DNA of 64,000 nucleotides from Xiphophorus maculatus. Taxonomy: Eukaryota > Chordata > Actinopteri > Cyprinodontiformes > Poeciliidae. The stretch spans positions 9,725,698 to 9,789,697 of the forward strand of contig NC_036443.1 in assembly GCF_002775205.1 (NCBI RefSeq). The letters are read 5' to 3'. The notes beneath the pieces were generated by a model. That model made no database searches, was not told the origin of the DNA, and saw only the letters and a list, made by a program, of their open reading frames with translations. Positions 1,320-24,404 of the stretch are shown here, one piece after another (position 1 is the stretch's first letter; each line of letters begins with the position of its first letter). A program made the position numbers and the translations under genes.

Positions 1320-2315
1320 TGAAAGTTTTACAATTGTGTAGGAATTTTGGCCCACTCATCTTTGCTGAATTGTTATAATTCTGCTGCAGTGGAAGATTTT
1401 TCACCATGACCAGTTTTTTTTAAGTCATAAATCCAAAAAAAGAAACAAAAGAGTGCCAGGATGTATATGCATAGTGAAATAATGAGCCGATCTGACTTTA
1501 TAATTATGTTTGGACCAGCAATGAATTTCTATAAGACAAAATAAAATATCTGGGATCATTTGAGTTAATCAGAACCAGAATCTCGAGGTTCTCCATTTGC
1601 TGCAAACATCATTAGAGAGTTGACCACAGTTGTGCTCACGTCCCGCCCACAATAGTGAGGAACAGAGCAGATAATGGAAAAACTACCTGGGGTGAAACTG
1701 AACCACACATTAATCGGTTAATGCTTAAATTGCCAGTGGAAAAACACTTTTGATGAGTCGTCGCTATACTGATAGGGTAATTTTGTTCAGCCAGCCATTC
1801 CTGGGAAGCTTCACAGCTGTTCCATGTTTTCGCCATGTGAGGGTAATGGCTCTCACTGTGGTTCACTGGAGATTCACTGGAGTCCCAAAGCTTTAGAAAT
1901 GGCTTTGTAAGCCTTTCCTGATTGGAAGATCTCAATTACTGTCTTTGTCATTTGTTCCTTAATTTCTCTGCATGTCGGCATGATATCCAGCTTTTAATTA
2001 TATTTTTGTTTACTTCACTTTGTCAGGAAGGTCCTGTTTAAGTGATGTCTTGATTGGGAGTAGGTGTGTCATTAAACAGCCCCAGATGTGACAAGAGACA
2101 GTGAACTCAGGTGTATTGGAAATATTTAGTAAGGGTGGATGGCAATCACTTTCATGCAGGGCCACGTAGGTTTGGATTTTTGTGCATTTTGTGTTCACTT
2201 GTGTTGTGTTTGACTAATATGCAAATTGTATTGATGTTGTGAAACACTGAAGTGTAACAAATTATGCAAAAAAAGGAAGTCAGGAAGAGGTCAAACACCA
2301 CACCACTATAGCTTC
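1320..2315 (-). mobile_element. Old DNA-transposon relic
   Basis: The segment reads like a decayed fish DNA transposon. Its right part (about 2160-2310), with GCCACGTAGGTTTGG and the closing AAACACCACACCACTATAG, matches from memory the terminal region of a common teleost repeat. A second, more diverged copy of that terminal region lies at about 2889-2992 (GAAACACAGAAATGTAACAAA). Minus-strand frames at 1636-1935 and 2010-2198 are probably transposase debris, but I see no catalytic motif. The family is not assigned. Confidence 0.45.
1494..1602. repeat. Copy of the NLR upstream segment
   Basis: This segment shares a long diverged match with about 19797-19902. Both have TTTATAATTATGTTT, then AAGACAAAATAAAATATCTG, then GAACCTCGAGGTTCT or close variants, in the same order and orientation. 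The second copy lies 600-700 bp upstream of the NLR start codon. It is either a promoter-region copy left by NLR duplication or an unrelated repeat present twice. Confidence 0.55.
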
Positions 2316-3037: not shown

Positions 3038-3555
3038 CTACAGGTCACACAAAGTCACAGAACCTTTCTCAAACCAGAAGGCTGGAAATAGCTCTGCTGT
3101 GAATTTTGTTTTGAAAGTATGAATCAAGCTCCGCTTCTCTGATGATATATTGTAATAACTTAGAGTTCCTCATTCCCAGTCAAGAAACACACCTATTTTG
3201 TTGCATGTAGGGACTTTGATTTCTTCTTCTGTGTTTTTATGCATGGCTTTGTATCCAGTCTTGGAGCAGAGCAGACTCCAGGACTTGTCATTGCATCCCA
3301 GACCACCATCACGGTCCCAGTTTCTACCCACATCTTTATATGCCACAGCAATTCCCACCACACCTTTCCATTCCACTTCCCAGTAACAAAGTTGGTTCAG
3401 GCCTTTATCACAAAATACCTGGGTCCTCTTGAACCTTTCATCACTTGTATTTCGCTGCTTCTTGACATCATCATCAGTTTTCGCTTTTTTGTTGTTTTCA
3501 ACCAGAACAAGCCGTCTGCTTGCTGAGTTCTTATCAAACATAAGATCTGCACCAT
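3038..3555 (-). CDS. B30.2 (PRY-SPRY) exon of the NLR, with premature TGA
   Basis: Last coding exon, encoding a ligand-binding B30.2 domain of the type that ends many fish NLRC3-like proteins. The PRY part has ASRRLVLVENNKKA; the SPRY part has YWEVEW, GIAVAYK and NDKSWSLLCS. After FLDWE the frame meets TGA at 3172-3170. The same frame then stays open as GTLSYYNISSEKRSLIHTF and on to the usual family ending GSVTLCDL and TAG at 3040-3038. So one codon is replaced by a stop and 43 further codons are preserved. If used, the domain would lack its last beta strands. Confidence 0.8.
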
Positions 3556-4455
3556 CTGAAAGTGTTCAACAAGAAAATAAAGTAAGCTTTGTGAGAATTT
3601 AAACAATGACAGTTTCAGAATGTGTACTGTTTTTACCATAATGAATCCATGAATTTAAACATTAAATCTACTAGATTTGAAGAATTTGGAGTAATTAAGT
3701 ATTTTGTGATTTCCTTAGATATGAAGTCATGTGTTATTTTTAGTATGATCGTTATTGCCTGTTAAATACCCTTCAGATGATCAAGTTCTAACTTCCACTT
3801 TCAAATAAACATGATGCATCTTGTAATACAAAAATGTAAAAATTCTGAGGGAAAAAAACAGCTTACATTTACTCCAACTGGGTTTTAGTCGATGTTTTCC
3901 TTCATAGTCAAAGCTGTGCACAGTAAGACAAGAAAGATTCATTTTATTTTAGAAATATTGGAAAGTCTTTACATATTATTTCATTCCTATTTTTATTGCT
4001 ATGAAAGCTTATTATTATGTTATTTACTACACAATGTGTAGTTTAATTCACCAGCTCTTGGACTATAACATTTATTATTTAGCCAAGCCTAGCAAGACAA
4101 GTTTCAGTGAGATCCCTCATAAATACCTGATTGCTGTTAAAAGGCTCTACTCAGACATGGTGCATCATTAGATTAAGTTATTTTTCTACAAGTTGCAGAA
4201 CTAAATAATGTCTGATTTATTTACTCACTTCACTGTCTCAAGTTTCTTGTTTGGATCCTCAACTATTGCATTGAGAGCCCTCATCCCATTGTCTCCAGGA
4301 TGATTGTAACTCAGGTCCAAGTGTTTAAGTGAGGAGAGTCTATTGGACTTAATAGCTTCAGCCAGAGAAATGCAGCCTGTCTTTGTCACCTGACATCCTG
4401 CCAGCCTGCACAAAGACACAGTTGTGGACTAGAAAGAGCTCAGCAAAATTTGACA

Positions 4456-4528
<73 letters not shown>

Positions 4529-7500
4529 TGTATATATACAGTATGTACTATACATGGTTTAAATTGTAAATGGCCTGAACTTGCCTAGCACTTTTTCAAG
4601 TCCATTGGACCCCAAAGTGCTTGATGCCACATTTGGTCATTCACCCATTCACACACACATTCCACACCGATGGTAGCGAGCTACTAGATTGTAGCCACAG
4701 CCTACCTGAAATAGTCTGACAGAGGAGAAGCTGCTATGCACCAGGGCCACCAGGTCCTCTGACCACCACTAGTAGACTGTTGTATTATATTGACACAACA
4801 TTTGACAGTGATACAAAAGTTCAGTATTTTATATTATATAGATTTATTACAAGGAATAGAATTTGTAATTTTGAATGGTATGGCCAACAAATAATGAGAG
4901 TCCGAAATATGGCTTCTCAAAACATTAGAATATTCCAGATTATTTTTTGATAATAAGTCATTTATTTACATTTACATCTATTTTTATCAAAAAACATAAT
5001 CTGCAATAGTCTAATGTTTTGACACACCATATTTTGGACTCAGTATTTGTAGGCCATAATCTTTAAAATTACACTAAACAACTTTTATTGAACTTTAGTT
5101 TTATCACTTTCAGTACTATTTTCATAGGACTGTTGTATTATATTGACACTTAACACTAACAAAGAATTGTGAACACATAGAATAACCTTAAATCTTGGAA
5201 TAAAACAGTTTATAAACTCAAAATAGTGGCTAACTATAACACTGGTTGATATATTAAAAAACCTACTTGAGAGTCTCTAGTTTACAGTTCACATGTTTCA
5301 ACCCATCAGCAAGTCGCTTCACTCCAGCATCCAGCAAATCATTATGACTCAGGTCCAACAATGTGAGATTAGAGGATGGATTGGTTAGCACTGATGATGT
5401 CAGACCTTTGCAAGATTCTTCAGAGAGCTCACACCAACTCAGTCTGTAAAAAGATCCATGAAAACAATCAAGTTAATTAGACAAACCATGTGTGAAATTC
5501 CACGTTTGTCTTGTCAAACTACAATACCACCACTAACGGCAAAAGCCCTAACTCTCATATACAACATTAATAGTTTGTTCAAAATGAAGAAATTATTAAA
5601 AAGGATTATTCTGAACCAGTGAGGTATTGTAGACACTATATGATATAAAAAATACTTACAAAGTAGTGTTTGAGACTTTGACCACTGGCATCATTCCCAG
5701 AAGGACTTTCTCTGATTTCAGGTATTTCTTAAGATCAAACACTTCAAGGTTTTCATCTGATGTCAGCAGCACAAAGGTTAAAGCTGACCACTGAGAAGCA
5801 GTGAAAGTTTCAAAAGGTTTTTCTTCTGATTTAAGATAATTTTTGATTTCTTGAACAAGGGTGTCGTCATTCAGCTCATTAAGACAGTAGAAAAGATTAA
5901 GCTTTTTCTCTGTGTCACTGTTGTTCTCTCTGATCTTCTTTTTGATGCACTCTGCTGTTTCCTTATTAGTGTCTTTGTGTTTTTCAGTCTTATCTATCAG
6001 ATCCTGAAGTAGATTCTGATTAGATTCCAGAGAGAGACCCACTAGGAACCGAAGGAACATGTCCCAGTCCCCATGTTCACTCTCAAAAGCCTTGTCCACT
6101 GCTTTCTTATAAAACTCTGAGGCTGCTGAGCTGGATTCTGGAGAGCTGCCATGTACTCTTGAATGCTTTTATGGACAAAGCAAAACAGTTTCTGAGGGTA
6201 CAGCTCATTATTTTCTCTTTTGATCTGAGTGAACAACCCAGAGAAAACAGCAGCTTTGGTTACATCAGTCCCACAACTGGTCAAGTCTTCTTCAGTAAAG
6301 AGAAGGTTTTTCTCCTCTAGGCCTTTGAAAGCAAGTTTTCCCAAAGATAGGATTGTTTCATCATTAGTTTTATCACAGAATGTCTCCGTTCCAGAGGTTT
6401 CAGAGGTTGACTGATCTGTATTATATTTTACTTTTGTCTGTCTGCGCTGGAGCAAAAGGAAATGTGTGTACATGTCAGTCAGAGTTTTTGGCAGTTCATC
6501 ATCTTGATTTCTTTCAACAAAGTCCTCCAAAACCTTTGATGTGATGAAACAGAAAACAGGGATGTGACACATTATGTAAAGAGCTACTGATTTCTTCACA
6601 TATGACAAGACTTTTTCAGCCACATTCTCATCACTGAATCGCTTCATGAAATACTTTTCCTTTTGCTCATCATTAAATCCTCTCACTTCTGTCATTCGAT
6701 CAACGTTTTCTGGAGGAATGTTGTTGGATGCTGCAGGTCGGGAGGTGATCCAGATTTGAGCTTTAGGGAGCAAATTTCCCAGGATGAGATTTGACAGCAG
6801 ACCATTCATTGAGGTTGGTGTTGTGACATCACTCAATTTATTTGTTTCACTGAACTTAAGATCAAGACGACATTCATCAAAACCATCCAGAACAATCAGA
6901 ATGTTGTATTTGTCATAGTCAGTTATTTCAGATGTCCTCATTGCTGGGAAGAACTGATGAATCAGATCTTGTAAACTGTGCTCTTTATCTGCTCTCAGAT
7001 TTAGCTCTCGGAAAGGAAGTGGAAAAATGAAAAAAATGTTTTCTGTTGCTTTGCTCTCTGCCCAGTCAAGTATGTATTTCATTGAGGCAAATGTTTTTCC
7101 TATTCCTGCCACTCCAACGGTAAGGACAGTCTTAATGTTTTGATTACTATCAGCAGGTTTAAAGATGTCACAGTATTTAATAGATGTTTCTTCATTTGTT
7201 GTTTTGAACCTTGCATTCTGAACCTGCATGGCTTCATTCTGAGCACGCTCTCCTTCTGTGATGTAGAGGTCAGTGAAGACCTCGTTAAGAAGAGCTGAGG
7301 TCTTCTGTCCTTCAATCCCTTCAGACACGCTGGTGAATTGATCTTTTAGTTCACTTTTGAGTTTTCTTTGACTTGTGATATCAGGTCTCTCTGAAAAAAT
7401 ACAATGGAAATAGACAAAAAACATAGATTAAATACTTTTGAAAAAAATTATGTTATATATTTTTTTGACAAAATATAAAAACACACACAATAAAAGACTA

Positions 7501-10500
7501 CTAATTGCAAACTTTGACCTAGGGATCAAAGTAGTTTTAAATACTTGAAGTGTACTATGACGAAAATCGTCAGTGGCTGATTGTGCAAACCAAAACAAAT
7601 AAAAACATTAGTAATTTTACTATACTATAGATTCCCAGAAAGGATAACACAGAAAGTAGAAGCACTTCACAATGTGAGTACCACTTGTATTTTGCCATAT
7701 GGGGTGGGACGTAATTAGTTACATTTACATCTATTGTTGTAATTACAGTTTGCCTAATTTGTCCTTTAAGTTGTTTACAAAACTTGAACTTTTACTTTTA
7801 CTTGAGTTTGTTTTGAGTAAAGACACTCAGTTACATTTGAAATCATATATATTAATGAGTAAATATAGACAATAAGAAAACACCAGAAAAAACTGAAAGC
7901 TACGAGCTCCAGGAGGGGAGAGATCCGAACTTTTTCATGGCGCTTCGTTTTCTCAGTAAAACAACTTATATAATCATGTCAAGGTTGTAACTTTCAGTTT
8001 AGAAAGCTGGGTCATCTGGGTTTTCCTCTGAGCCTCGTGTTTTTATCCTGTTTTTATCCTATTCTGCCCTCTGAATAAGTATAAGCTAAACCTGCAGGCT
8101 TTGCTCTCCGATTATAATGAGACATTGAGTAATTACAAATAATTTCAGATTAAGTGTTATATGTCTGGTATTTTGATACTCTGCCCTCCTCATATGTTTC
8201 TGTTAGCGGTAGCTAATGTTAATGTGAGCTATGCTACTTTAGTTGTTCACAGCTAAGTCCGTGTATTTTTAGTGTCACAAATATTATTATTATAATATAT
8301 AATAATATTATTTGTGTGTATTTGTGAATGAATATGTTGTTGTCTTTCAATTTTGTAGTTGTGTTTAGTGATTTGTTGAAGTGATTTGCATTTCAGGGCC
8401 ACCATACTAAAGCAACCCGCATGAAAAGAAGAACAACGTAGATGTCACACCACAATGCACCATTTACAGAATAATGGAGGCACCATCTTTGGATTGACTT
8501 TGAAGTTGTTGAGCAAAGGGAAAAAATAGTATCGTCACAAGATCATAAGACAAATGAAGCTGAGAAAAAAAAATACAACTGATAGCAGTGGCTTCTTGTG
8601 GAGCACTGAGTACATAGATCTCTTTCAGAATTATATTTTTACCAGATTTGCCTGTTGTGTGAATGTAGCCTTAGTTATTGTTTCTTTAGTCACTTCTGTG
8701 TATAGTGGAATTGGTGATTTTTTAATATATTTTTGTCTCTATCTTACTTTTTATCAGCTTGCTTCATTTTTAATAAATGAAACTTAAGTGTCAGTTTCAC
8801 GGTTACTTTTACAACCTGAAACCTAAGCAATACAAAGTAATTTCATTTTGACTTATTTAAAGTACATACATAGCTCTCTGGAATAGAAAAGATTCATCCT
8901 TGAAACTCATTCTGAAAAGTTGCATGGTTCATCAGTTTATAAATATTAGTATACTTTAAAGTAGTTTAAACTAAAAGTCAAAATTTTGTAATTTTACAGC
9001 TAACAGTTTAAATATTAGAAAATACATTTAAGTTCAATCTAATTGTAAGAAATTTGTATTTGCAGATCTTACCTCGTATTTCTGTCAGTCTGTCAATAAA
9101 GCCATCAGGGATTTTCTTAGCAGCTGGAGGCTGAGAGGTTATCCAGATCTGGGCCTCTGGCAGCAGGTTTCCTCTGATAAGGTTTGTTAGTAACAAGTTG
9201 ACTGAGGTTGGTTCTCTGACATCAGTCAAAGTTTTACTGTTTTCAAAGTCTAAACAATCTTGATATGCATTGAGTCCATCCAAAATAAATAAAATATTTA
9301 ACTGGGAATAGTCAGAGATGATGATATTTTTGGTTTCCTCAAAGAAGTGATTAAGAAGCTCAAACAAACTGATATTTTTATTTTTTATCAAGTTGAGTTT
9401 TGAGAAGTCAATAAGAAACAAAAGTTCTGCAGGTTTTGCCTGGCTAGAAAATGGTCTTCTGATCCTGGTGAAAAATGACTTGTTCTCATCCTTTTTAGCC
9501 CATTCTTTTATAAACTTTTTCATGTGAAAAGATTTTCCTATACCAGCTTCTCCAATGGTCAGCACTGTTCTAGTTTCCTTTCCTTTCACATCTTTGAAGA
9601 TCTCAGAAGTGGATTTCACTTTTGTAAAATCTTTCTGCTCACTTTCCCCTTCTTCAGAGCCATTTTCTCTTCTGATGACATGTTCTGTTGTTTTCTGGTT
9701 TGGATGACTGATTTCATCTTTTTCGTCAGTGATTTCTTTCAGAAATCTATTTTTCAGACATGATTCTAACTTCTTCTGTTGCTCAGAGGTTTCTAAATAT
9801 ACAAAGCAAAGTTGTACAATGATGTAAAATGTGAATAAAGTCAACAAAAATGGTTACTTTGCATTGAAGATAAATTATAAATAATTTATTCAGACAGATA
9901 TTCTTACCTTGACATTGAACAGTTCTGTTGATACATTCAGAAGGAATCTTATCAAGTCCTTTAGGTTGAGAAATTATCCAAATATGAGCTTCAGGAAGCA
10001 GATTTCCTTTGATCAGATTCGTTAGCAGCACATCCATTGATGCTGCTTCCTTCAAGTCTTTAACTTCTTTGTTGTTTACAAAGTCAAGAGGAAGTTCGCA
10101 TTTTTCCAGTCCATCAAGAATGAAACATAAATTTTTCTTGTCATCTTTGGAAACTTTAACATTTTTTTTGTTGAAGAAATCATCCAGCAGAGATTCCATG
10201 CTTTTTACTTCATCTTTCTTTGTATTCAGCTCAGTAAAATCAAGGGTCACTAAAGCCTTTATGTGTTTATTGGATTTTCCTTTTGCCCAGTCGATCATGA
10301 ATATTTTTATTTGGAAAGTTTTACCAATTCCAGGGGCTCCTTTCATCAGGACAGTTCGCACATTTTTGGACACACCAGGAAGTTTGGAAATCAGAAATTT
10401 ATTGCTGGAAAATAAATCTTTGAGAGTGATTAACTTCTTTTTCCCACTTTCAACCATCACTATCTCAGAGAGTTTTGGGTCAATTTTATGTCTTCCCACC

Positions 10501-13500
10501 TCCTTAAGAATTACTTTCTTCAGGTCATGTTTTCCCTTGGCATCTCCTCCTGTAATTTTTAAATTAATGATATGTGAACAACAGAAATAAGCATAACATA
10601 TTTGATACACATGATTGCCAACACTCTTCGAAATATATTTTCAGCAATAATCTGCAGTAATATCTCATATTTCCTCCTGGCATCCAGCTTTCATCAATAA
10701 TCAACATCAAGCATTCAGAATTAATGAATAAAAACAATCTGTATTTCTTCTGGGCAACAATTTAAACTCAGCAAAAAGCAATAATATTCACTAAGTGTCA
10801 CCCCAGCAAATTATTATTAGTTTACACCATTGACATTTTTGTCTTGAAACATTAACTATTGTCAGGGAAAGTAATAATAAGACCTGACAAATACGGGTTT
10901 AAGATTCATAAGATTTGAGGCTTTATAATTTAGGGAGAGAAAAAACAACTTGGTCTTCTTAGAAACAATTAGTTTTACTTTCCGGTGGCAATTTTTTTGT
11001 TAATGTTCAAATAGAAAGAACAGGAATATTTTGACAAAAGCAGGTAAGACATTAATCATTACCACATCAGACAACACCTCATTAAAATAACACCAACAAA
11101 AAAAACAAATAAAAACTACATTTTACAATTACAAAATATAATCTGACACAGAGTTTATCTCTGAAAAATATTAATTAGTATTCATTAGTAAACAATTTAA
11201 AGCAAATGGACAGTTAGACTTAAAAAAAACTTTTCTTTTTAAGTCATGCTCACCTGTGTCAGCTGGTCCAGATGTTTCAGGTTGGTTGTCATTAGAATCA
11301 CTGCAGGCAAAGACAAAACATTTAACTGTTTTGATTTATATTTACTTAAACAGACATATGTTTACTAATTTTGAAGTTGAAAGACTGTTTTCGTAATTTA
11401 TTTTTGCTAGAGCCGGGACTTCGTCACATTTATTTTAATTAATGAATTCTATACATTTTAATGCACTAAAATTTTAATGTAATTAATCACTTTTTCTTCC
11501 ATGGAAAGGTAGCAAAGCTATTCAAACCTAAAATACCATTTTAATGCAAAACATGTTGCAGTATGCACAGATGTCCACAACGCTAATGTCAGCATTCACA
11601 GTTCATATTTCTAAAGAAGTATATTTTCAAAGAAGTGAAATGAATGATAAGGAGGTTCCTGAAACACTTGAAAGCTGAATTGATATAATAGCACTATGTA
11701 AAAATATGAATAGGTTAAATAACCTAAATAACAGATTCATATATCTATTCATTCAATAATTTAGAAACAAAAGCAGTTTTTGTGTTGAACATATTTACTT
11801 TGCCAATACATGGTTTTCAACAGACAAAATCGCAATGATGTACTTCTGTTTGGCAAAACACTTGCTGGCATCTATACGTTCATTGCAGAGTAATGATAAC
11901 AATTGCATAAAACAGTGAAATGCCAGTCAGAAGATCCTGATAATGGCTCAACTATCTTTGATGTCCAACACCAGATAAAAGCAGAAATTTCTTGAATGAG
12001 ATGAAAACGAAAAACAAGGAGACTAGAACAGAATCACTGGATAGATGCTTGAAGTGTGATGCAACACAGGAAGACATTTACAACACAAAACAGTGCTATT
12101 ATTCAGTAACTTTATTCTGTATTAACATACAGTATATTCTCCAATCTGTCAATTTGTTTCTGTAAAACTTACCAAGAAGATACATTTTAAATTAATTTAA
12201 GAAATAATTATGTCTTCAAAGAAAAGCCCTTGACCAGTCAGTTTATCTCAAAGCAGAAAAAGTGCAGACTGCAACAAATATCATCCATCAGTATTGGCCT
12301 TGTTCACCTCAAGGAACAAGAAGCAGTCTGGAAAATTCATCACTGAATGAACTGCTGAATTTATTTTCTTCTAACACACCATCACTCTCTTAAGAACCTG
12401 ACCTGTACATGTTTATTTAATTAATTAATACACCAATTTGTGCCACTTATGGTATTAACCTTAATCACACTCTTGTGTCTTGTATGATGCACTTTTTTTT
12501 GCATTAATAAAATTTGTCCATGTTTCATATTATTTTTTATAAATGATTTTTCTACTTTTTCCCTCCTACTACTAGAGAGAAAATGCTATTTAAAGCCAAT
12601 CTCCTTTTTTTCTTCTCTCTTGCTCTCTGTGAAGGTGGACGTTTTTTTTCTCTGCTCCCTCCTTGCCCATGCCTGCCCTGCTTGCTTTGTTTTAGTTCTC
12701 TCTTTTCCTATATTTTTGGAGCCTTTCTTTGCACATCCTCCGCATCTACAAATTATGGATCTGGTCAACGGGTCTCTCAATGCAATTGATCAAATTATCT
12801 CAACGAGAAGACTGAGCACAGGAGAGCCCTCTTTGTCCTTCGGGGACACACCCAGCGGGATTCACCCTGGATTTATTCATGATAATAGGCTTTCTGCTGT
12901 TTGGAGCTTGCAGATACCTGGATTATAGACAAATTTGTGACGGAGTTGGCCGAACTAGTGAACACTCAGACTGTGAACAAAGACGTAGGTTGGATGTGAG
13001 TCTTGCTGAGATTTGCAGCCCAGCTGAGGACTTCAAAACTCACTAACGGGATGGAATCGATCTTGGAGAAGTTGGTAGTTTCTGTTCAGTGGAACGACCA
13101 AACTAATTTGGATAATTGAGAACTGAGATGTATTGGAGAAACTTTAGGGAAGATTGAAATTTATAATCTACATGACCTAAGACATTCTGTATCTGAATTG
13201 ACTTTCCCCGTTTTGCCTTGGAAGGGCTGCATATTTCCAATCTCCTTGAAGATATGTAAACATAATGCTCCTTCTCAGTTCACCCCCTCCTGTTATCCAT
13301 GCACCTGTGGAGCTGGGCGCTCCCAAGGACATGCCTTGATAATAACATCTTATCGGACATCTGCCGGGAGGCTGAGCAACGTGGTTTCATGGCCCCGTCA
13401 TGTCACCGCCTTCACTCATGTTTTTGTTTTGACCATTATTTTGTCTGAATGTTGCCATGTGCCCTCATGTGTCCTTTCCTCTTTTTTATTTTATTTTGTT

Positions 13501-16500
13501 AGAAACTGCAGAGTACTCACTTTAACCAAGAAAAGGAATTAGAGCAAACTTGGAATCCAGAGACTCTAGTTTATTAGTCACTTTTTAGCTTATATTTTAG
13601 AAACTATCGAGTACTCACTGTTTAGATCAATATTAGATTAATTTTTAGATTATTATGCAGATAGACTCCTATTATTGCAACCCAGAAAAGGAGTTAGAAC
13701 GAACTTAGAATCCAGAAAAAATCTTCCAGAACAGGAACATTTAGTTTTTATTATTACTTAGAAACTGTGGAGTACTCATTACTTTTACAAATTTAGAGCA
13801 CACTTAGAAAGTCCAGAGATTATTTACTTAGATTTAAGTTAAGTTAGCAACCCAGAACATAGATTAGAACAAACTCAGAATCCAGAAAAACCACCTTAGC
13901 AACTACGTTTTAGACTCCTGTTCTTCCAACCCAGAAATGAAATTAGACCAGAGGATATTTATCTAGCAACCCTGAAGAGGAGCACCTAGTTTACATATTT
14001 TGGATCAACATTAGATTATTTTTACTTCTTTTGCTTTTTCCTTTGGTTTGTTATTTTGTTTGTATTTCATTTTAAGTCCTGTAAAGCACTGTGTATTGCC
14101 TTGTTGCTGAAAATGTGCTATATAAATAAAATGACCTTACCTTATCTTGTGTATTTTATAAACTTGGCCAATAAACCAGATTGTGATTCTGATCTTTTTC
14201 AGTGCAAGTTGTTTGATGCATGTTTTCCTATATTATTTATTGTGTTCATATAAGCTCATAAAAATCAGGTCATAATATCTGGCATTGACAAATATCTCAC
14301 ATCTATGATGGAGTTTTAGTGCCAGGCTAAGAATTTACTTTTTAAATTACGAGAATAAAGTGATAATATCATGAGAACAACGTCATAATATTGCAATAAC
14401 ATAATGCTCTGATCACCCGTCAACATCTGTTATTTTTATTTAATTAAAAATTATTGAATTAAAATAATTAAATACAACAGATAAATAAATGATAGAGTGG
14501 GTAATTTTTATATTAAATGGTACAGAAGAGGATTTTTGTTTCTGCCAAAGCAAATCAAGTCTATTTTTCTTTATTATGGTTTTAAATTACAAATAGCCCA
14601 AAATGTTATTAATGTACACAATACTTGGTGGAAAAGAACAATGTCTTTTTGATTTCCATGTGTTTGACATCATTGGAAAACTTAAAATCAGCTTTTTCAG
14701 AATCTGTGAATAACTCAAAAAGTCTCCTGGTCGACTTGTTCATGGCTTGTCGTGGCAGTTCTAATTTTCCAAACAGCATCAGCTTTATTATTAGGATAAA
14801 CAAAGAAAACAACAATAAGTACATTAAGAGACTAATATTTTCGTTTCAGGTTGTATTTATTAATATTAATTGTTATGTTATTGTAGGGGCATTTTCAAAT
14901 TAGATGGTCCTTGAGTGGTCCTGAGGTTAAGTGATCCTCAGTCTGAAAATTTTGAGAAACACTGACAGTAAATTGGGCAGTGTTTAATAAAACCAACAAC
15001 AAAACAAAACAGCTGGGAAAATAAGGTTCAGGGTGAAAGATTTTCCTTTGAAAAACAGCAGATTGGACATCATAAAACAAAAACATCTATTATTCAGTAA
15101 CCTTATTCTCTATTATTATATAATCTGTCCATTTGTTTCTTCACAACTTAATAAGAAGGTCCATTTACATTAAATTAAGAAATAAATATATCTTCAAAGA
15201 AAAGGCCTTGACCAGTCAGTTTATCTCAAAGCAGAAGAAGTGCAGACTGCAACAAACATCATCCATCAGTATTGGCCTTGTTCACCTCAAGGAACAAGAA
15301 GCAGTCTGGAAAATTCATCACTGAATGAACTGCTGAATTTATTTTCTTCTAACACATATTTTGTTATTTTTTTTATATAAATGATTTCTCTATTTTTTTC
15401 CTCTTACGGCTTGAAAGACAATGCTATCCAGAGTCAAACTCCTTGTGTGTGTACAAATGTGGCCATTTTTTCAGTGCAAGTAGTTTCATCCATGATTTCC
15501 TGCATTATCTAAAATGTTCATATAAATAACATAACAAGGCATTTCTTTCAAATTGAAGCTATCTACTTGATTTTTATAGTCTTGACTATATCAAGACTGT
15601 GATATAGTCTTGATGTCTACATCACAATAACTTCTGTATATGGTACATGTGTTATTGTGTTTTACTAAGAAAAGGTTACCTTTGATCTTCACTGTCAAAG
15701 TTCAAAGGTTCACCTTTGGATCTGTCACTTTCCAAGCTCACTGAAGAAGAGATTGGAGTTTGGTGATGAGGTAAGCTAGAAGACAAATATCAAAATGTTT
15801 TATTAGACAAGCTCTAACAAATTGAAACCAGCTTTCCCCTTAAATTTTAAAATATCAAGTTTAATAATCTGATTAAATAAAATATCTGGCATTGACAAAT
15901 ATCTCAAATCTACAATGAAGTTTTAGGGCTAGGCTAAGAATTTATTTTTTAAATTCTGAGAATAGGGTCATAATGTCATGAGAACAAAGTCAGAATATTA
16001 GAAAAATATAATGCTCTGCTCATATAAAAAAATGTTTTAATAGTACCTTTCTTTTGAAATTTAGGGTTTGCATCCCTTAGGATAATTGCCCATTTGGGCT
16101 ATAAAAATGTCACTTTTGCATGAAACAAATGTTAAATTAATGTAAGTAATGAATCTACCATGTTTTTGCATGTTTTGCTTTTTTTTAAAAAATACCACAA
16201 GTCAGTATCAATTAAATTTATGTAGCAGTAATTAACAAATGTATTAAGTCAGTTTACAAAAAATTTATTTCAACCCAGTCATTCATACTAAGCGTGCATG
16301 TAGTGAGAGTGGATTCCTTTAACAGGAAGAAATCTCCTGCAGAACCAGAACCTGACTCAGTACAAGCAACAATCCGCCACTACCCTGAGAAACTCTGCTC
16401 TGAAATACTCTGAATTAATATATAATACACAGTAAAGTAAAATAATCCACTTTTGAGGGTAAAATAAGCTTCAACAAAATTTTAATAGGGAACATTTATA

Positions 16501-19176
16501 AATTTATTGACTCAAAATAAAAGAAAATTTGAGTGTAACTATTCCTCTTTTATCCCCCAGGATACAGACATTTTATGTCTGCTGGTTAAATGTAATTCAT
16601 ATTCTTTTCAAAAATATATATTAAATCACTCTTAAAGAACATCATGTTACAAATTCAAGTCCTTTCACATCAGTATGTATAGGAAAAAGAACAACTCATA
16701 CATCACAATGTATATCTTTGTCCATGCGGTCTGCCATTTTGAACTTTATATATCCATATAAGTTTGTTTTTGAATGCTGGCATAGGGTCACATGACCTCA
16801 ATATTCGCCCATTCCCCCTTTACATGTATAAAATGATGTGAAGTGCAAGTGGTTGATAGCCTTCATGTCTATAGCTTGTGAAATGTCTGTATCCCCCAGG
16901 ACACACAATCTACAACAGATATTGTTATTGTTTTATTTTTTATGAATGATTTTTCAATTTTTACCTCCTTCACAGACAACACTATCCAGAGTCAAACTCC
17001 TTGTATAGATAACAAACTTGGCCAATAAAACAGATTGTGATTCTGATTTTTCTGAGTGCAAGTTGTTTGATGCATGTTTCCCTACATTATTTAATGTGTT
17101 CATATTAAATAATGAACTCATAAAGAACAGGGCATTACTTTTGAATTGAAGCTATCTACTTGATTTTTATTTAAATTATGTCCTGTTATGTTTTATATTA
17201 TTTTTTTTTTATTTCTGATCATTTTAAAATGAACATAATGCTCTTTGGATTAAAATAATTTTCAAAAGCCTCAAAATCCTCAAAATCTGCTCAAAAGACA
17301 CAGACAGTGTTTTTTGAGCAGAATTCACTGGTATATTACTATAACTAGTATACATTCTGCTGCTTTTTATTGTGTTTTACATGAACTATTACCAAAGTGT
17401 TTTACCTTTGATCTTCACTTTCAAAGTTCAAAGGTTCACCTTTGGATCTGTCACTTTCCAAGCTCACTGAAGAAGAGATTGGAGTTTGGTGATGAGGTAA
17501 GCTAGAAGACAAATATCAAAATGTTTTATTAGACAAGCTCCAACAAATATAAATAAATTTTCCCCTTAAAATACTAAGTCTCTGCAGAGCCCTGCAAACA
17601 ACATCAGCTTTATTATTAGGATAAATGAAGAGAACAATAATAAGTACATTAAGAGACTAATATTTTTGTTTCAGATTGTATATATTTAAGTATTGTGTTA
17701 CTGTGCGGGCATTTTCAAAATAGGTGGTCCGGGAGTGTTTGTTAGATGGGATAAGTGATCCATCCATCCATTTTCTTTACACTCTTGTCCCTATAGTGTG
17801 TTCGGGAGGGGTGCTGGTGCCCATCACCAGCGAGATATTTCGGGCAAGAGGTGGGGTATGTTGAGTCTATTTTAGTTCCTAACCTGCAAGGAATCAACCA
17901 AAAACACAAATTGCTTTTCTGCAGAAGAGGGGAGCAGAGCCAGACGCGGAAAACCTGCCATCAAACACTGTCTGTGATCAACTCTTAGTCCCCAACTGCC
18001 TTTTATTATGATTACAAGGAAGGAGGTTGGGCTTTTTCACACAAAGAATGGATCAAAGACCTTTACTACATGATGTTCTGGACCCTTCTGTGGACATGCA
18101 CTTATAAAGCACGAGGCTGACCGTTACCAATCAGTTTCACAGGCAGCTGATAACCAAAGCAGCTGATAACACAGAGCTGTGTAAACGTTTCTAGCCTCCA
18201 GGCAAACATCCTAAAAACAGTTAATAGTGTATCACAAAAGAAAGGAGCCAAGTAAACAAACGGAATAATAATATGAAAACATAGCCTTTCAAATAAACTC
18301 ATAAGTAAATTAACTCTGATAATTTTTCTAACAGGGTATACCCTGGACAGGTCTCCAGTCTGTCACAGGGGTTAAGTGATCCTCAGTATGAAAAAGTTTG
18401 AGAAATACTTGTGAGGATGTGGAATTTTGTGTGTGTTTTTAGTTTAGTTCTCTGTGTCTTCTTGTTTACCCCATGATTGTCCCCAGTTTTCTTCTGTTTT
18501 CCTTGATTACTCCATTTTGTGTTTTACTCCACCTGTGTCACCTGCCCCCTGGATCCTAGTCGTGAGTCGTGTGTGTCTCCAGCGCTACCAGTGTCAGAGT
18601 TTCTTGCCTCATTGCTCACCTGTGCTGCCTGGACTTCTGTACTGTTTGTGAACATTATTAAAACCATAATTTTTGCACTTCTACCTAGGTCCAGCCGCGT
18701 CTATCCTCATCACCAAAAACCACAATCCAGACAACACTGACATAAGTAAATTGGGCAGTGTTTATTAAAACCAACAACAAAACAAAACAGCTGGGAAAGT
18801 AAGTTTTAGGGTGAAAGATTTTCCTTTGAAAAATCTTTCAAAGATTAGACAGAATTAAACAAACACCACGTATTATTCAGTAACTTTTTTTCTGTATTAC
18901 TATATATACTTTAATCTGTCCATGTGTTTCTGCAAAACTTAAGGTCAATTTAGATTAAATTGATAAATAATTACTTTTGGAACTAGGGTTACACTCTGTC
19001 AACAAACAAAATGCAGAACTTGTGGTGGGGTGGAGGGGATTCCAAGCATGCCGACAAATCCAAATGATCAGTTTACCATTCTATTTTCTCTTGAGAAAGT
19101 TTTTCAGAAAAGACTGAAAACAAAAAAGCTACACTTACCTCTCACCTGATTTCATCCCATCCTCTTCCTGAGACAT
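3038..19176 (-). CDS. NLRC3-like fish NLR with three NACHT exons; reading frame broken
   Basis: Cytosolic NLR-family innate immune receptor of the fish FISNA-NACHT group. Coding exons, 5' to 3': 19176-19139, 17501-17406, 15775-15680, 11300-11254, 10549-9908, 9792-9073, 7390-5660, 5443-5267, 4405-4229, 3913-3867, 3555-3038. The start MSQEEDGMKSG is typical of this family, and each join keeps phase. Domain order: short acidic N-terminus, two copies of a 32-residue linker, three FISNA/NACHT modules, two LRRs, B30.2. Two lesions are visible. The third NACHT exon (1731 nt) is one base out of phase with its neighbours and shifts frame near 6150, and the B30.2 exon has an in-frame TGA at 3172-3170. 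Without repair the product ends at 6042 after about 995 aa. I infer either a recent pseudogene, a truncated three-NACHT protein, or a sequence error at 6150. The family assignment is secure; the function is not. Confidence 0.85.
3867..3913 (-). CDS. Short exon before the B30.2 domain
   Basis: A 47-nt exon flanked by AG and GT, encoding about FDYEGKHRLKPSWSK. A short linker exon of this form is usual between the last LRR exon and the B30.2 exon in fish NLRs. Its phases (in 1 after AA, out 1) join both neighbours in frame. The orphan fragment at 23317-23363 contains an equivalent 47-nt exon. Confidence 0.8.
4229..4405 (-). CDS. LRR exon 2 of the NLR
   Basis: A 177-nt exon encoding one NLR-type leucine-rich repeat pair, with LAGCQVTKTGC, then LKHLDLSYNHPGDNG, ending KLETV. 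It has the standard splice phase of fish NLR LRR exons (ends AA, next exon restores the codon). It lies downstream of the frameshift in the NACHT exon, so it is read only if that shift is repaired. Confidence 0.85.
4460..4526. repeat. (TA)n microsatellite
   Basis: About 33 TA units in the intron between the two LRR exons, followed by an imperfect TA-rich palindrome (CTGTATATATACAG). Confidence 0.95.
4560..4795. repeat. Interspersed fish repeat
   Basis: The stretch contains phrases I know from a very common teleost repeat: GGACCCCAAAGTGCTT, TCATTCACCCATTCACACAC, GTAGCCACAGC, then CCACTAGTAG. It sits directly after the TA microsatellite in an NLR intron. It is probably a SINE or the tail of a non-LTR element; the family is not assigned. 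Confidence 0.6.
4898..5041. mobile_element. Palindromic element (MITE-like)
   Basis: The two halves are imperfect inverted repeats. The left begins AGTCCGAAATATGG and contains CAAAACATTAGAATATTCCAG; the right ends CCATATTTTGGACT and contains CTAATGTTTTGA. The whole would fold into a hairpin about 60 bp long. This is typical of a short non-autonomous DNA transposon. It lies in the intron between the third NACHT exon's LRR neighbours. Confidence 0.65.
5267..5443 (-). CDS. LRR exon 1 of the NLR
   Basis: A 177-nt exon with the NLR LRR pattern: LSWCELSEESCKGL, then LTLLDLSHNDLLDAG, ending CKLETL. It joins in phase to the NACHT exon (TT|A) and to the second LRR exon (AA|G). Only two LRR exons were found, fewer than the long LRR arrays usual in this family. 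Confidence 0.85.
5660..7390 (-). CDS. Third FISNA-NACHT exon (canonical, frameshifted)
   Basis: The main NACHT exon. It begins with a FISNA-like segment (KLKSELKDQF to KYCDIFK). It has Walker A GVAGIGKT (P-loop, ATP binding), Walker B VLDGFDECR (metal coordination and hydrolysis) and sensor 1 IWITSRPAA. It then continues through the NACHT-associated and winged-helix regions to FVHKSIQEYMAAL. There the frame breaks: the +1 frame resumes SPESSSAASEFYKKAVDKAF and continues to the donor at 5660. The exon length is 0 mod 3, where 1 mod 3 is required. All catalytic motifs are intact, so this module could bind and hydrolyse nucleotide even though the LRRs are lost. Confidence 0.85.
7440..9072. other. 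Intron between NACHT exons 2 and 3
   Basis: No coding signal is seen. The intron holds an AT-rich palindrome at about 8279-8316 (ATATTATTATTATAATATATAATAATATTATT). A short plus-strand frame at 8554-8787 has hydrophobic codons but no recognisable family and is probably chance. Other stretches show nothing notable. Confidence 0.6.
9073..9792 (-). CDS. Second FISNA-NACHT exon (partial, degenerate)
   Basis: A 720-nt exon, phase 1 at both ends, encoding a partial NACHT. A FISNA-like lead (KKLESCLKNRFLKEI to STSEIFKDVKG) precedes Walker A GEAGIGKS. The Walker B region reads LFILDGLNAYQDC, where the family usually has LDGFDE, so the second acidic residue is lost. Sensor 1 reads IWITSQPPA, with Gln for the usual Arg. 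The exon ends at RLTEIRG, right after sensor 1, so the helical and winged-helix parts are absent. It joins in frame to exons on both sides. An insert (about FFTRIRRPFSSQAK) follows the first helix. I infer a nucleotide-binding but catalytically weak module. Confidence 0.85.
9908..10549 (-). CDS. First FISNA-NACHT exon (partial, degenerate)
   Basis: A 642-nt exon, phase 1 at both ends, encoding another partial NACHT. The lead (HDLKKVILKEVGR to LKDLFSS) is a shortened FISNA-like segment. Walker A is GAPGIGKT. Walker B is CFILDGLEKCEL, with Lys where the second acid of DGFDE normally sits. Sensor 1 is IWIISQPKG, again Gln for Arg. It ends at RTVQCQG, the same structural point as the second module. 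It has diverged clearly from modules 2 and 3, so the duplication is not recent. A long plus-strand open frame over this exon is only its antisense shadow. Confidence 0.85.
10550..11253. other. NLR intron, nothing notable
   Basis: AT-rich intron between the linker exon and the first NACHT exon. No repeat or exon was recognised. Confidence 0.5.
11254..11300 (-). CDS. Linker exon of the NLR
   Basis: A 47-nt exon between good AG and GT sites, encoding about DSNDNQPETSGPADTG. It is polar and probably disordered. It takes phase 2 from the 96-nt exons (AG|T) and delivers phase 1 to the first NACHT exon (G|GA), which supports the model. Confidence 0.75.
12100..12600. repeat. Local duplication unit, copy 1 (5' part)
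   Basis: The segment from ATTATTCAGTAAC through CTTGACCAGTCAGTTTATCT, CAGTATTGGCCTTGTTCACC and GAACTGCTGAATTTATTTTC is repeated almost exactly at about 15090-15356. The following TAAATGATTTTTC...CTATT stretch recurs at 15378-15440 and 16940-17000. These are intron duplications inside the NLR gene. One of them carried the 96-nt exon. Confidence 0.8.
12604..14146 (+). mobile_element. Insertion of about 1.5 kb, probable non-LTR element
   Basis: Comparing the local duplicates shows foreign DNA here. Copies near 15430 and 16990 run AGTCAAACTCCTTG straight into the sequence that here resumes after 14146 (TTATAAACTTGGCC). The insert is more GC-rich at its 5' part. Its 3' end has a fish retroelement tail, GTAAAGCACT...TTGTTGCTGAAAATGTGCTATATAAATAAAAT followed by ACCTTACCTTAT repeats. 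No reverse transcriptase frame is visible, so it is 5'-truncated, rearranged or non-autonomous. Its open frames (12583-12928, 13198-13542) are unrecognised. Confidence 0.6.
13545..13985. repeat. Degenerate internal tandem repeats
   Basis: Phrases such as AACCCAGAAAAGGAGTTAGA, GAATCCAGAAAAA and AGAAACTGTGGAGTACTCA recur in diverged form about every 70-150 bp within the inserted element. This suggests an old minisatellite-like expansion. Confidence 0.6.
14160..15480. repeat. Local duplication unit, copy 2
   Basis: Blocks here reappear in the same order at about 17008-18890: GATTGTGATTCTGAT...GTTTGATGCATG (14176 and 17034), CAGCTTTATTATTAGGATAA (14779 and 17605), AATTGGGCAGTGTTTA (14972 and 18752) and GAAAGATTTTCCTTTGAAAA. 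This copy lacks the insertions found in the other, so it shows what the site looked like before them. Confidence 0.8.
15680..15775 (-). CDS. 96-nt linker exon, copy 1
   Basis: Encodes LPHHQTPISSSVSLESDRSK followed by GEPLNFDSEDQ. The pattern of Ser-rich text, then SxxSDRSK and a PLNF motif, is common at the N-terminus of fish NLRC3-like proteins. It enters and leaves in phase 2, so it can be included or skipped without changing frame. It is nearly identical to 17406-17501, including about 50 bp of flanking intron. Confidence 0.8.
15880..16030. repeat. Repeat of 14275-14410
   Basis: ATATCTGGCATTGACAAATA, AAGAATTTA and CATGAGAACAA appear in the same order in both places, with about 10-15% differences by eye. 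It is part of the same set of intron duplications. Confidence 0.7.
17406..17501 (-). CDS. 96-nt linker exon, copy 2
   Basis: The second copy of the PLNF-motif exon differs from the other by one visible base in the coding part (GAAAGTGAAGAT against GACAGTGAAGAT, Glu for Asp). It takes phase 2 directly from the start exon (GAG AG|C). Both copies have intact AG and GT sites, so the mRNA could hold either or both. Confidence 0.8.
17761..18372. mobile_element. CCATCCAT-type repeat split by an LTR
   Basis: Starts CATCCATCCATTTTCT, a very common fish repeat start, and ends CCTGGACAGGTCTCCAGTCTGTCACAGGGG, its common end. It is flanked by the 9-bp duplication TAAGTGATC (17752-17760 and 18373-18381). 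The paralogous site near 14930 has a single TAAGTGATC and no insert. The 475-bp LTR at 17859-18333 interrupts it. Confidence 0.75.
17859..18333. mobile_element. Solo LTR, 475 bp
   Basis: Starts TGTTGAGTCT and ends TTTCTAACA (TG...CA with short inverted ends TGTT/AACA). It is flanked by the 5-bp duplication GGGTA (17854-17858 and 18334-18338). An internal CTTATAAAGC at about 18102 could be a TATA box. No internal gag-pol region is present, so it is a solo LTR left by recombination. It sits inside the older CCATCCAT repeat. Confidence 0.8.
18410..18733. mobile_element. Second solo LTR-like insert, 324 bp
   Basis: Starts TGTGAGGATG and ends CCAGACA (TG...CA). It is flanked by ATACT on the left and ACACT on the right. 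The duplicated empty site near 14956 reads GAGAAACACTGACAG, giving ACACT as the original target, with one later change on the left. No coding capacity. Confidence 0.7.
19139..19176 (-). CDS. Start exon of the NLR
   Basis: ATG at 19176 begins MSQEEDGMKSGE, and the exon ends GAG AG before GTAAGTG. An acidic MSxxEDGxKS-type start is the norm for fish NLRC3-like proteins, and the phase matches the 96-nt exons. An in-frame second Met follows at codon 8. Confidence 0.8.
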
Positions 19177-22356: not shown

Positions 22357-23363
22357 TTATATTTCACACAAAGTTACAGAGCCTTTCTGAAACCAGAAAC
22401 CTGCAAAAATCTCCTTTGTGAATTTTGCATAGAAGGTGTGAATCAGACTCAGCCCTCCAGAAGACACATTAAAATAAAATAACTCAGCGTACCAACCTTC
22501 AAGTCAAGCAATACTGCTATTTTTTGGCACGGTTTAATCCTAACATTGAGTCGATCCGTCCCATGTAAGGCAATGCATTCAGTCTTGGAACATAGCAAAC
22601 TCCAGGACCAGTCATTGCAGCCCAGACCACCAGTGCTGTCCCTTTCTCTACCCACAGTTTTATACGCCACTGCAATGCCAACCTTGCCTGTCCATTTCAC
22701 TTCCCAGTAGGAGATGCATTTTAGGCTCTCCTCACAAAGTACCTGGGTTCTCTTAAATCTGCCCTCATTTTCTTGTTGTGAAACCCCATTACTAATATTG
22801 AGTATAGTTTTTGCTTCTTTGTTGTTTTCAGACAGAAGAAGCCGTCTGCCTGCGGTTTTTCCATCAAGTTTTAGCTCTGTAGCATCTGACAAAAATAAAA
22901 AAAATTAATTATTAGTCACTGAAGAGCAAATTGAACAAAATATCAAATAAAATCAAGATAAGTCAGGAAGATTGTTGAAAACATATGAAGGTCTGTAAAA
23001 CAAAATAAAGCTAAAATTGTGGTGCAGCTGCAGTTATCAGGTTGTTGGACTGAAAGTGAAACTCTCCTTGCATTTCTTACTTCTATATAATTCTCTGGCC
23101 AGTTTATTATATCTACAGGATATCTGAGAGCTGCTTGGGATCATGTTAGTCTTAGACTTTGTTCTTGTAATTAATCTGGCTTTTCCTGCATCAGTAACAG
23201 GGTTGGAGTTTGTTACATCTAAATCTAAAAGGGTTTGAAGCCATGTCTTGGGTCTAAGAACTGTCTTGATTTGGACTTTTAAATTGGATTAGAAATGTTT
23301 TAGAGAATAGACTTACATTTCATCATCCCAGGCTTTAACCGATGTGGTCCATTATAGTCAAAG
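22357..23363 (-). pseudogene. Orphan NLR 3' end (linker exon plus B30.2)
   Basis: Two exons equal the last two of the neighbouring NLR. 23363-23317 (47 nt) encodes FDYNGPHRLKPGMMK. 22885-22357 is a B30.2 exon with AGRRLLLSENNKEAK, YWEVKW, GIAVAYK and NDWSWSLLCS. After GTLSYF a 5-bp insertion (an extra ATTTT-type unit near 22473) throws the frame into a stop at 22449. The other frame resumes NVSSGGLSLIHTFYAKF and reaches the usual end GSVTLCEI and TAA at 22359-22357. No NACHT or LRR exon lies upstream as far as 29000. It is a broken duplicate of a related gene, not a copy of the B30.2 at 3038-3555. Confidence 0.85.
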
Positions 23364-24404
23364 CTGTTAATAAAAAAAGAAGAAGAAAAAAGAAACACTC
23401 GGGGTGTGACAAATGATGCAAATGATGAAAGGTGGAAGTTTTCCACTGACTGGTACATTTTTGCAGGTGATAGAAATCCATATCTACAAGAGTAGCTCCT
23501 CCCAGAGCTGCTTATAATCTATATAATCTGAGATTTCACAGATTATCTCACTGCTTTACTGTCACGACATGCCGACAGTTTTAACAAAAATGTTGGAAAC
23601 ATTTGTATGTGTGACCCAGCTTTAAAGAGTTGTGTTGGTTATTCAGGAAGAGGGTATAAAAAGATGTGTAAAGACTGTGCATTAAATTGCTTGGGCTCAT
23701 GTTAAAGGCAGAAAAATAATTGAATGAATTAATTTTGCTCTCATTGGTTCATGTCACAAAAACCTGGCATTTTTTACTGAGTATTTAAACTGTTGGGGCC
23801 CACAGTAATTCAGTTTTACACTACTGTATGTCGTTTTACACACCCCATCTGAACTGCTTTGTTTTGCATACCTTTCACTGCCCTTCTTCCGTCTCTGTCA
23901 TCGCTGCACAGTAAGTTCTCAGCTTCCAGCACCTCCTCCTTTCTAGCATCAAGACTGAGAGACAACAATCAGAAGAGCAGCAGCTGCAGTGAAACAGGAC
24001 AGCTGAGTGGCGCCACAGAGATATGTGCTTCATCTTCCACATGAAAGCTATTAATGTCTCACTAAAATACATTGAAGCTCTTAATGTCAGTTTTTGTTTT
24101 TTGTTGTTTTTTTTTAACGAAAAACCTCATTTTTTTTTAGATCTTCATGTATCATTGTAGACTGTTAATAAAAAAAAATGTTTAGGAAAATAATTTGGAT
24201 ATTTTTAACTCCTCATATCTTTACATTTTCAAGCAAATCTCAAAATGAAAAAACTAAAATTAATTTGAGTCTCACAATTAACATTTACAACTGGCCTCTT
24301 TATCCTTCAAATCGAATTTGAGGTAAATTTTTTCCATTAATGGATCCATGCAAGTAGAAATGTGATCAGTTTGACAGCGCTCATAGTTCTTACTGTACAT
24401 GATT

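Follow-up and report, generated by a model that had tools for sequence, protein, structure and literature searches.

Can a single NLR protein carry several nucleotide-binding units in one reading frame? NLRs are usually portrayed as having one switch per chain and oligomerising after activation. The question is raised by a window of 64,000 nucleotides from Xiphophorus maculatus (C1:9725698-9789697, in a 704-Mb assembly of 101 contigs), in which the initial annotation saw an NLR gene with three tandem FISNA/NACHT exons. Our answer is that the architecture alone, several nucleotide-binding modules in one reading frame, very likely exists. The long open chain is found in an adjacent paralogue with seven NACHT matches and 2481 amino acids, whereas the copy inside the window has two disabling lesions. 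For the whole statement, a tandem pair of NLR-C receptors with an array of exons that encode only a nucleotide-binding domain (NBD), the extra modules being poor at hydrolysis and used for docking, we put the probability at roughly 0.6.

The window gene is of the teleost NLR-C/B30.2 type and lies on the minus strand, from 19176 to about 3041. Gene models for it and for its paralogue were built on splice consensus, phase and homology in one genome. Three exons match the Pfam NACHT profile: exon A (9908..10549, 642 nucleotides, 1.1e-20), exon B (9073..9792, 720 nucleotides, 3.2e-18) and exon C (5660..7390, 1731 nucleotides, 2.7e-29). As initially annotated, their joins are in phase 1 and their splice sites are good. 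All borders are GT-AG, and against a simple consensus the donors of A and B score 8/9 and 7/9, where a score of at least 7 is reached by 52 of the 909 GT dinucleotides on the same strand between 3000 and 20000. The claim that the chain runs in frame to the start exon holds as well. The start exon (19139..19176, ATG at 19176) connects to A via two N-terminal repeat exons of 96 nucleotides, about 32 amino acids each (17406..17501 and 15680..15775), and a linker exon (11254..11300) that is entered in phase 2 and left in phase 1. The frame then continues until the lesion in exon C.

Two lesions escaped the initial annotation. Exon C is not one open frame. Its frame is lost at about 6134-6138, with the winged helix (WH) in one frame and HD2 in another, because 43 base pairs are missing there relative to the intact paralogue. 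In addition, the B30.2 (PRY-SPRY) exon (3170..3555) runs into an in-frame stop at 3172-3170, after which homology resumes in the same frame and extends to about 3041; the paralogue lacks this stop. Hence no full chain can come from the window gene as assembled here. It is a damaged copy, and we rejected the option of taking it at face value as an intact gene. A hidden intron behind the frame change is unsupported, as the paralogue holds the 43 extra bases in one open frame; a scan for splice sites was not made. Such damage is reported elsewhere. In the round goby, most FISNA-NACHT exons are described with frameshifts or a large insertion, which may reflect decay, new introns or assembly problems (PMC6988351). 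Among the longer NACHT matches in unitigs, stop codons are counted in 46 of 121 for haddock and in 51 of 140 for cod (PMC5894186). Going by these reported counts, broken FISNA-NACHT exons are common in fish.

The intact paralogue is adjacent to the window gene on its left and on the same strand (C1:9720934-9691132, minus). Its start exon, at C1:9720934, is the counterpart of the window start exon and lies outside the window, about 4.8 kb to its left. When its exons are joined at GT-AG sites in matching phase, the gene reads as one open frame of 2481 amino acids in 20 exons, in the order start exon, six repeat exons, linker, A1 to A5, B, C, three LRR exons, linker and B30.2. On this protein, Pfam finds seven NACHT stretches, one FISNA, one WH, one HD2 and one SPRY (1.3e-12). 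Exon C of the paralogue (C1:9697771-9695965) is open throughout, with FISNA, NACHT, WH and HD2 in one frame. The eight A and B exons of the two genes are all free of stops and frameshifts, and 8/8 have a GTAAG donor. The A-B intron of the window and the A5-B intron of the paralogue each measure about 115 nucleotides. The paralogue exon C also contains a short in-frame tandem duplication soon after Walker A (LDWAESKATEN / LDWAEGKATEN), which is absent from the window exon C.

What kind of modules are A and B? They had been described as a FISNA-like lead plus a NACHT core, of which only the NACHT part stands. All eight individually exceed the Pfam NACHT cut-off of 26.7 bits. A FISNA domain is matched by C alone; Pfam finds none in window A and B at E up to 1 and none in the paralogue's A and B exons at E up to 0.01, and we rejected its presence there. 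The short leads of A and B align loosely with the lead of exon C. At their other end, A and B stop at position 139-142 of the 167 positions of the NACHT profile, and in the alignment this 3' end falls at VR|GF of exon C. NLRP3 is the best PDB match by sequence for all three exons. In our own mapping by alignment, the end point of A and B falls near NLRP3 residue 371-372, after sensor-2 (P365-E369) and before A394 in HD1 (residue names as given in PMC9601872). Thus A and B are nucleotide-binding cores without HD1, the winged-helix domain (WHD) and HD2. Exon C follows the FISNA-NACHT-WH order of NLRP3, and A and B share the P-loop core with it. Unlike NLRP3, which has one NACHT, A and B lack the DE pair of Walker B, the sensor-1 arginine and HD1/WHD.

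Residue losses set these modules apart from the ordinary exons sampled. For comparison we assembled 41 ordinary NACHT exons, 21 from loci fetched as good matches (with duplicates and this locus excluded) and 20 picked by hand across contigs. A DGxDE Walker B and the sensor-1 arginine are present in 41/41 of this sample, and 0/8 A and B modules have either. Instead, the A modules carry DGLEK (in one case DCLEK) together with SQP, and the B modules DGLNA together with SQP. Walker A (G....GK[ST]) and the first aspartate are kept in 8/8. In NLRP3, single changes at the corresponding positions leave a fraction of ATP turnover of 0.18 (D305A), 0.22 (E306Q) and 0.10-0.40 (changes of R351), according to the values seen in PMC9633759. 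From their residues, A and B can probably bind nucleotide and are probably poor at hydrolysing it.

Among the matches scored, the close relatives of A and B all lie at this locus. Among the best 150 of 195 genome candidates for A, six exons are of the A type: window A and the five copies in the paralogue, which are 76-81% identical to window A over the full length, on the same strand and 16-26 kb left of the window. The remaining 144 of these best 150 have 35-44% identity and open frames of at least 454 amino acids. Among the best 150 of 200 candidates for B, two are of the B type, window B and C1:9699414-9700127 (89% identical). Scans of viral_contigs and genome_contigs found no relatives. 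Many of the listed matches fall into large clusters of ordinary NACHT exons with open frames of about 600 amino acids, on C8 (about 2.73-5.85 Mb) and C24 (about 3.8-14.4 Mb).

How did the array arise? In a three-way alignment, identity to A is 40% for B and 32% for C. In comparisons among the three, the proportion of synonymous differences (pS) is 0.70-0.74, nearly saturated, and that of nonsynonymous differences (pN) is 0.39-0.45, with C carrying one partial codon in this count. The modules are thus too diverged for a recent assembly duplication, as had been argued. A tree of 51 NBDs places all A copies in one group (100/100) and likewise recovers the B pair (100/98) and the C pair (99/95). 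Window A branches outside the five other A copies (97/85), a fork that a quick tree without B leaves open. This position suggests that the A-B-C arrangement is most likely older than the gene duplication, the multiplication of A in the left gene having come afterwards. The duplication units of A span about 0.75-1.4 kb and are 87-96% identical. In the paralogue, the intron that separates A3 from A4 (C1:9701702-9704981) contains pieces of the A unit without an exon, at 9703935-9704269 and 9702443-9702664, perhaps the remains of a sixth A exon that was lost.

Their common 3' border and residue losses suggest that A and B may have one origin. The tree joins them too (95/94), with a warning about long branches. 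In quick trees from which four long rows were excluded, B sits on a long branch beside exons of C14 when A is omitted; when B is omitted, A has a long branch too and no clear neighbour. We did not accept A and B as sisters from the tree.

The reading frames of the A exons appear to be maintained. Among 178 changes inferred on the A tree, about 6.8 nonsense changes are expected (5.3 if estimated from the count of amino-acid changes), and none is seen. The corresponding P values of about 0.001 and 0.005 are rough, since changes were counted by parsimony on a single assumed tree, with gene conversion left out of account. The protein alignment of the A copies needs whole-codon gaps only. Pooled over the 15 pairs of A copies, the ratio of nonsynonymous to synonymous divergence (dN/dS) is 0.55 in the core. 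Window A differs from A2-A4 by 0.19-0.235 in introns and by 0.085-0.105 in exons. For the C pair, dN/dS is 0.43 (0.25-0.85), and for the B30.2 pair 1.16 (0.35-3.44). We read this as A frames kept open under constraint while their amino acids would be loosely held; relaxed selection is a possible alternative.

These results can be combined into one account, of which the open frames, splice consensus, phases, homology and the residue losses common to A and B are read directly from the sequence. The locus is probably a two-gene tandem pair of the teleost NLR-C group (NLRC3-like, NLR-B30.2), in which NBD-only exons follow the N-terminal repeat exons and precede the ordinary FISNA-NACHT exon. Before the duplication, the gene would have had the order A-B-C. 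The left copy would then have multiplied A to five, giving a single open frame with seven nucleotide-binding modules; the right copy, that of the window, would have stayed at three modules and gained two disabling lesions. In such a protein, the complete C unit would be the ADP/ATP switch. A and B would keep the fold and may bind nucleotide, but they could neither hydrolyse it well nor be locked by HD1/WHD. They might serve as built-in NBD surfaces that dock on C or on the NACHT of other NLRs, as a scaffold or as an oligomer cap. Docking seems the likeliest use of A and B, but the mechanism is a tentative proposal, and we consider it rather doubtful. A regulatory role is plausible in view of a report, cited in a review, that piscine NLRC3 binds RIP2 via its NACHT and dampens NOD1 signalling (PMC12436146).

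The number of modules in the protein could also vary. The lengths of A and B are divisible by three and both exons have phase 1 on either side; hence inclusion or skipping of an exon leaves the frame unchanged. As symmetric cassettes, they make transcripts with fewer modules possible, and cassette splicing could vary the module number. Conceivably, the paralogue encodes a receptor whose one chain joins seven nucleotide-binding cores, of which six would be pseudo-ATPases, into a pre-wired stack of NBD surfaces. One complete switch would carry covalently linked units for docking or capping, which would seed the oligomers of the many ordinary NLRs of this fish, set their size or block them; exon duplication and cassette splicing would change the number of these units. 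We offer this as speculation and would not bet on it.

Several observations weigh against the account given above. The gene in the window is itself broken, in exon C and in the B30.2 exon. Changes among the A copies are spread nearly evenly over the three codon positions (66, 54 and 58). Pairwise dN/dS among the A copies ranges from 0.43 to 0.96 over 15 pairs, and its interval lies wholly below 1 for A4-A5 alone. In the lead, the pooled ratio over these pairs is 1.11, and the B pair has a dN/dS of 1.62 (0.81-6.60). These values indicate that amino-acid constraint is weak. Furthermore, intron and exon divergence are about equal between window A and A1 (0.126 vs 0.114) and between window A and A5 (0.103 vs 0.088), and also within the left gene, where they scatter both ways. 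The acceptor of window A has a modest pyrimidine tract (9/18). One glycine of Walker A is altered in B2 and the Walker B glycine in A4. The NLRP3 double change D305A/E306Q retains 0.42 of turnover (PMC9633759), so that, by this reported value, some hydrolysis may survive without the DE pair. Finally, the B exons match A at 42%, yet they are not among the listed matches of the A search; thus similar NBD-only exons may exist elsewhere in the genome.

How would the locus look if the extra modules were rarely used? A and B could be mostly skipped cassettes, with an ordinary single-NACHT NLR-B30.2 as the working protein and the extra modules in minor isoforms or in none. The symmetric phases of A and B permit this, since the linker exon joined directly to C gives a normal chain, and both the weak pyrimidine tract of window A and the weak amino-acid constraint among the A copies speak for it. 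However, eight exons that are open without exception, each with a GTAAG donor, and zero nonsense changes where 5.3-6.8 are expected, together with the constraint in the A core, argue for inclusion. We consider predominant skipping unlikely.

Alternatively, the whole locus may be decaying. The exon duplications would then be without function, the window gene a pseudogene and the paralogue a young one that is open by chance. The two lesions of the window gene fit this explanation, as do a frameshifted B30.2 relic upstream (22365-22888), the many A pairs with dN/dS near 1 and the broken NACHT exons reported for round goby (PMC6988351) and for haddock and cod (PMC5894186). Against it stand the 2481 codons that are open across 20 exons in the paralogue, the lack of any nonsense change in the A copies, and the dN/dS of 0.43 (0.25-0.85) between the C exons of paralogue and window. 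General decay seems quite improbable to us.

Might the modules be parts of separate genes, or might transcription start at each of them? Two ordinary NACHT exons on C15 are separated by about 8.6 kb, with LRR and B30.2 matches in between, and hence apparently belong to two genes. Neither gene of the C1 locus showed an LRR or B30.2 match between its A, B and C exons, the joins are in phase, and A and B are separated by only about 115 nucleotides in the window, as are A5 and B in the paralogue, which makes separate genes very improbable. An assembly artefact is hardly credible: fish NLR clusters are described as difficult to assemble (PMC5894186), but here 101 contigs cover 704 Mb, the duplicated A units differ by about 4-13% over 0.75-1.4 kb, and A, B and C diverged from one another long ago.

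The array of NBD-only exons can be compared with known receptors. In the zebrafish NLR-B30.2 family, N-terminal repeats of about 30 amino acids are each placed on their own exon, the largest exon spans Fisna, NACHT, winged helix and HD2, and all family genes are described as having one exon structure (PMC4852459). The genes at our locus resemble the teleost NLR-C/NLR-B30.2 receptors described for zebrafish (PMC4852459) and round goby (PMC6988351) in their N-terminal repeat exons, in the single large FISNA-NACHT-WH-HD2 exon, in the LRR exons with a last LRR, and in the C-terminal B30.2 exon, which is cut by a stop in the window. They differ in the extra NBD-only exons before the FISNA-NACHT exon, two in the window gene and six in the paralogue. 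Measured against the uniform exon structure reported for zebrafish, the locus is thus a variant of the family and not a plain member. Group 5 of the round goby NLR-C genes is given a Walker A of GVAG(V/I)GKT and an exon end of (L/M)PV(V/I)KASxK(A/V) (PMC6988351); exon C has GVAGIGKT, and its end, MPVVKVSNTTL, agrees in the first part only.

Extra nucleotide-binding domains have been reported outside fish. In coffee plant NLRs, a truncated NB-ARC precedes a complete one at one locus (PMC9301388). As presented there, this concerns a plant NB-ARC, one extra copy and a matter of annotation, whereas here up to six extra modules stand in one frame and share residue losses. A Xenopus gene prediction that combined NACHT domains from several NLRs is a warning for models of this kind (PMC2268669). 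A tandem NACHT array in an animal NLR was not found in the open-licence PubMed Central papers examined, which is weak evidence of absence.

If the NBD array is real, it would be a natural experiment on the function of an NBD surface without a switch. STAND modules would be multipliable within one chain, much like LRRs. Counts of NACHT matches can overstate the number of NLR genes in fish. The A and B types of NBD could be used as markers of such arrays in other species.

The other exons of the window gene complete its structure. The two N-terminal repeat exons are near copies within a 169-nucleotide direct repeat (95% identity), and segmental direct repeats of 79-96% identity surround both of them (12186-18833). 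Thus the N-terminal repeat exons, two in the window gene and six in the paralogue, were likewise multiplied by tandem duplication. The linker exon before A has a counterpart in the paralogue. Downstream of exon C lie two LRR exons, one matched by Pfam LRR_6 (5267..5443) and the other being the last LRR before B30.2 (4229..4405), compared to three LRR exons in the paralogue. A short linker exon (3867..3913) precedes B30.2 and forms a direct repeat with 23312-23384.

Beyond the pair, the window contains the relic of a third NLR gene upstream on the minus strand, consisting of the frameshifted B30.2 exon (22365-22888) and its linker exon (23312-23384). Protein queries with A, B and C found no NACHT exon near it. 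A fragment at about 1770-2000 (minus) resembles, by eye, the N-terminus of a Tc1/mariner transposase. Further along the window, CHDH-like exons (GMC oxidoreductase, Pfam) lie at 46231-54851 on the plus strand and a C-terminal exon of a calcium-channel alpha-1 subunit (CAC1F_C) at 61849-62178 on the minus strand. Exons at about 32-39 kb (minus) resemble ACTR8 by eye; the one that we tested had no Pfam match. Together with these putative ACTR8 exons, the CHDH-like and calcium-channel exons could serve as a syntenic anchor when the locus is sought in other fish.

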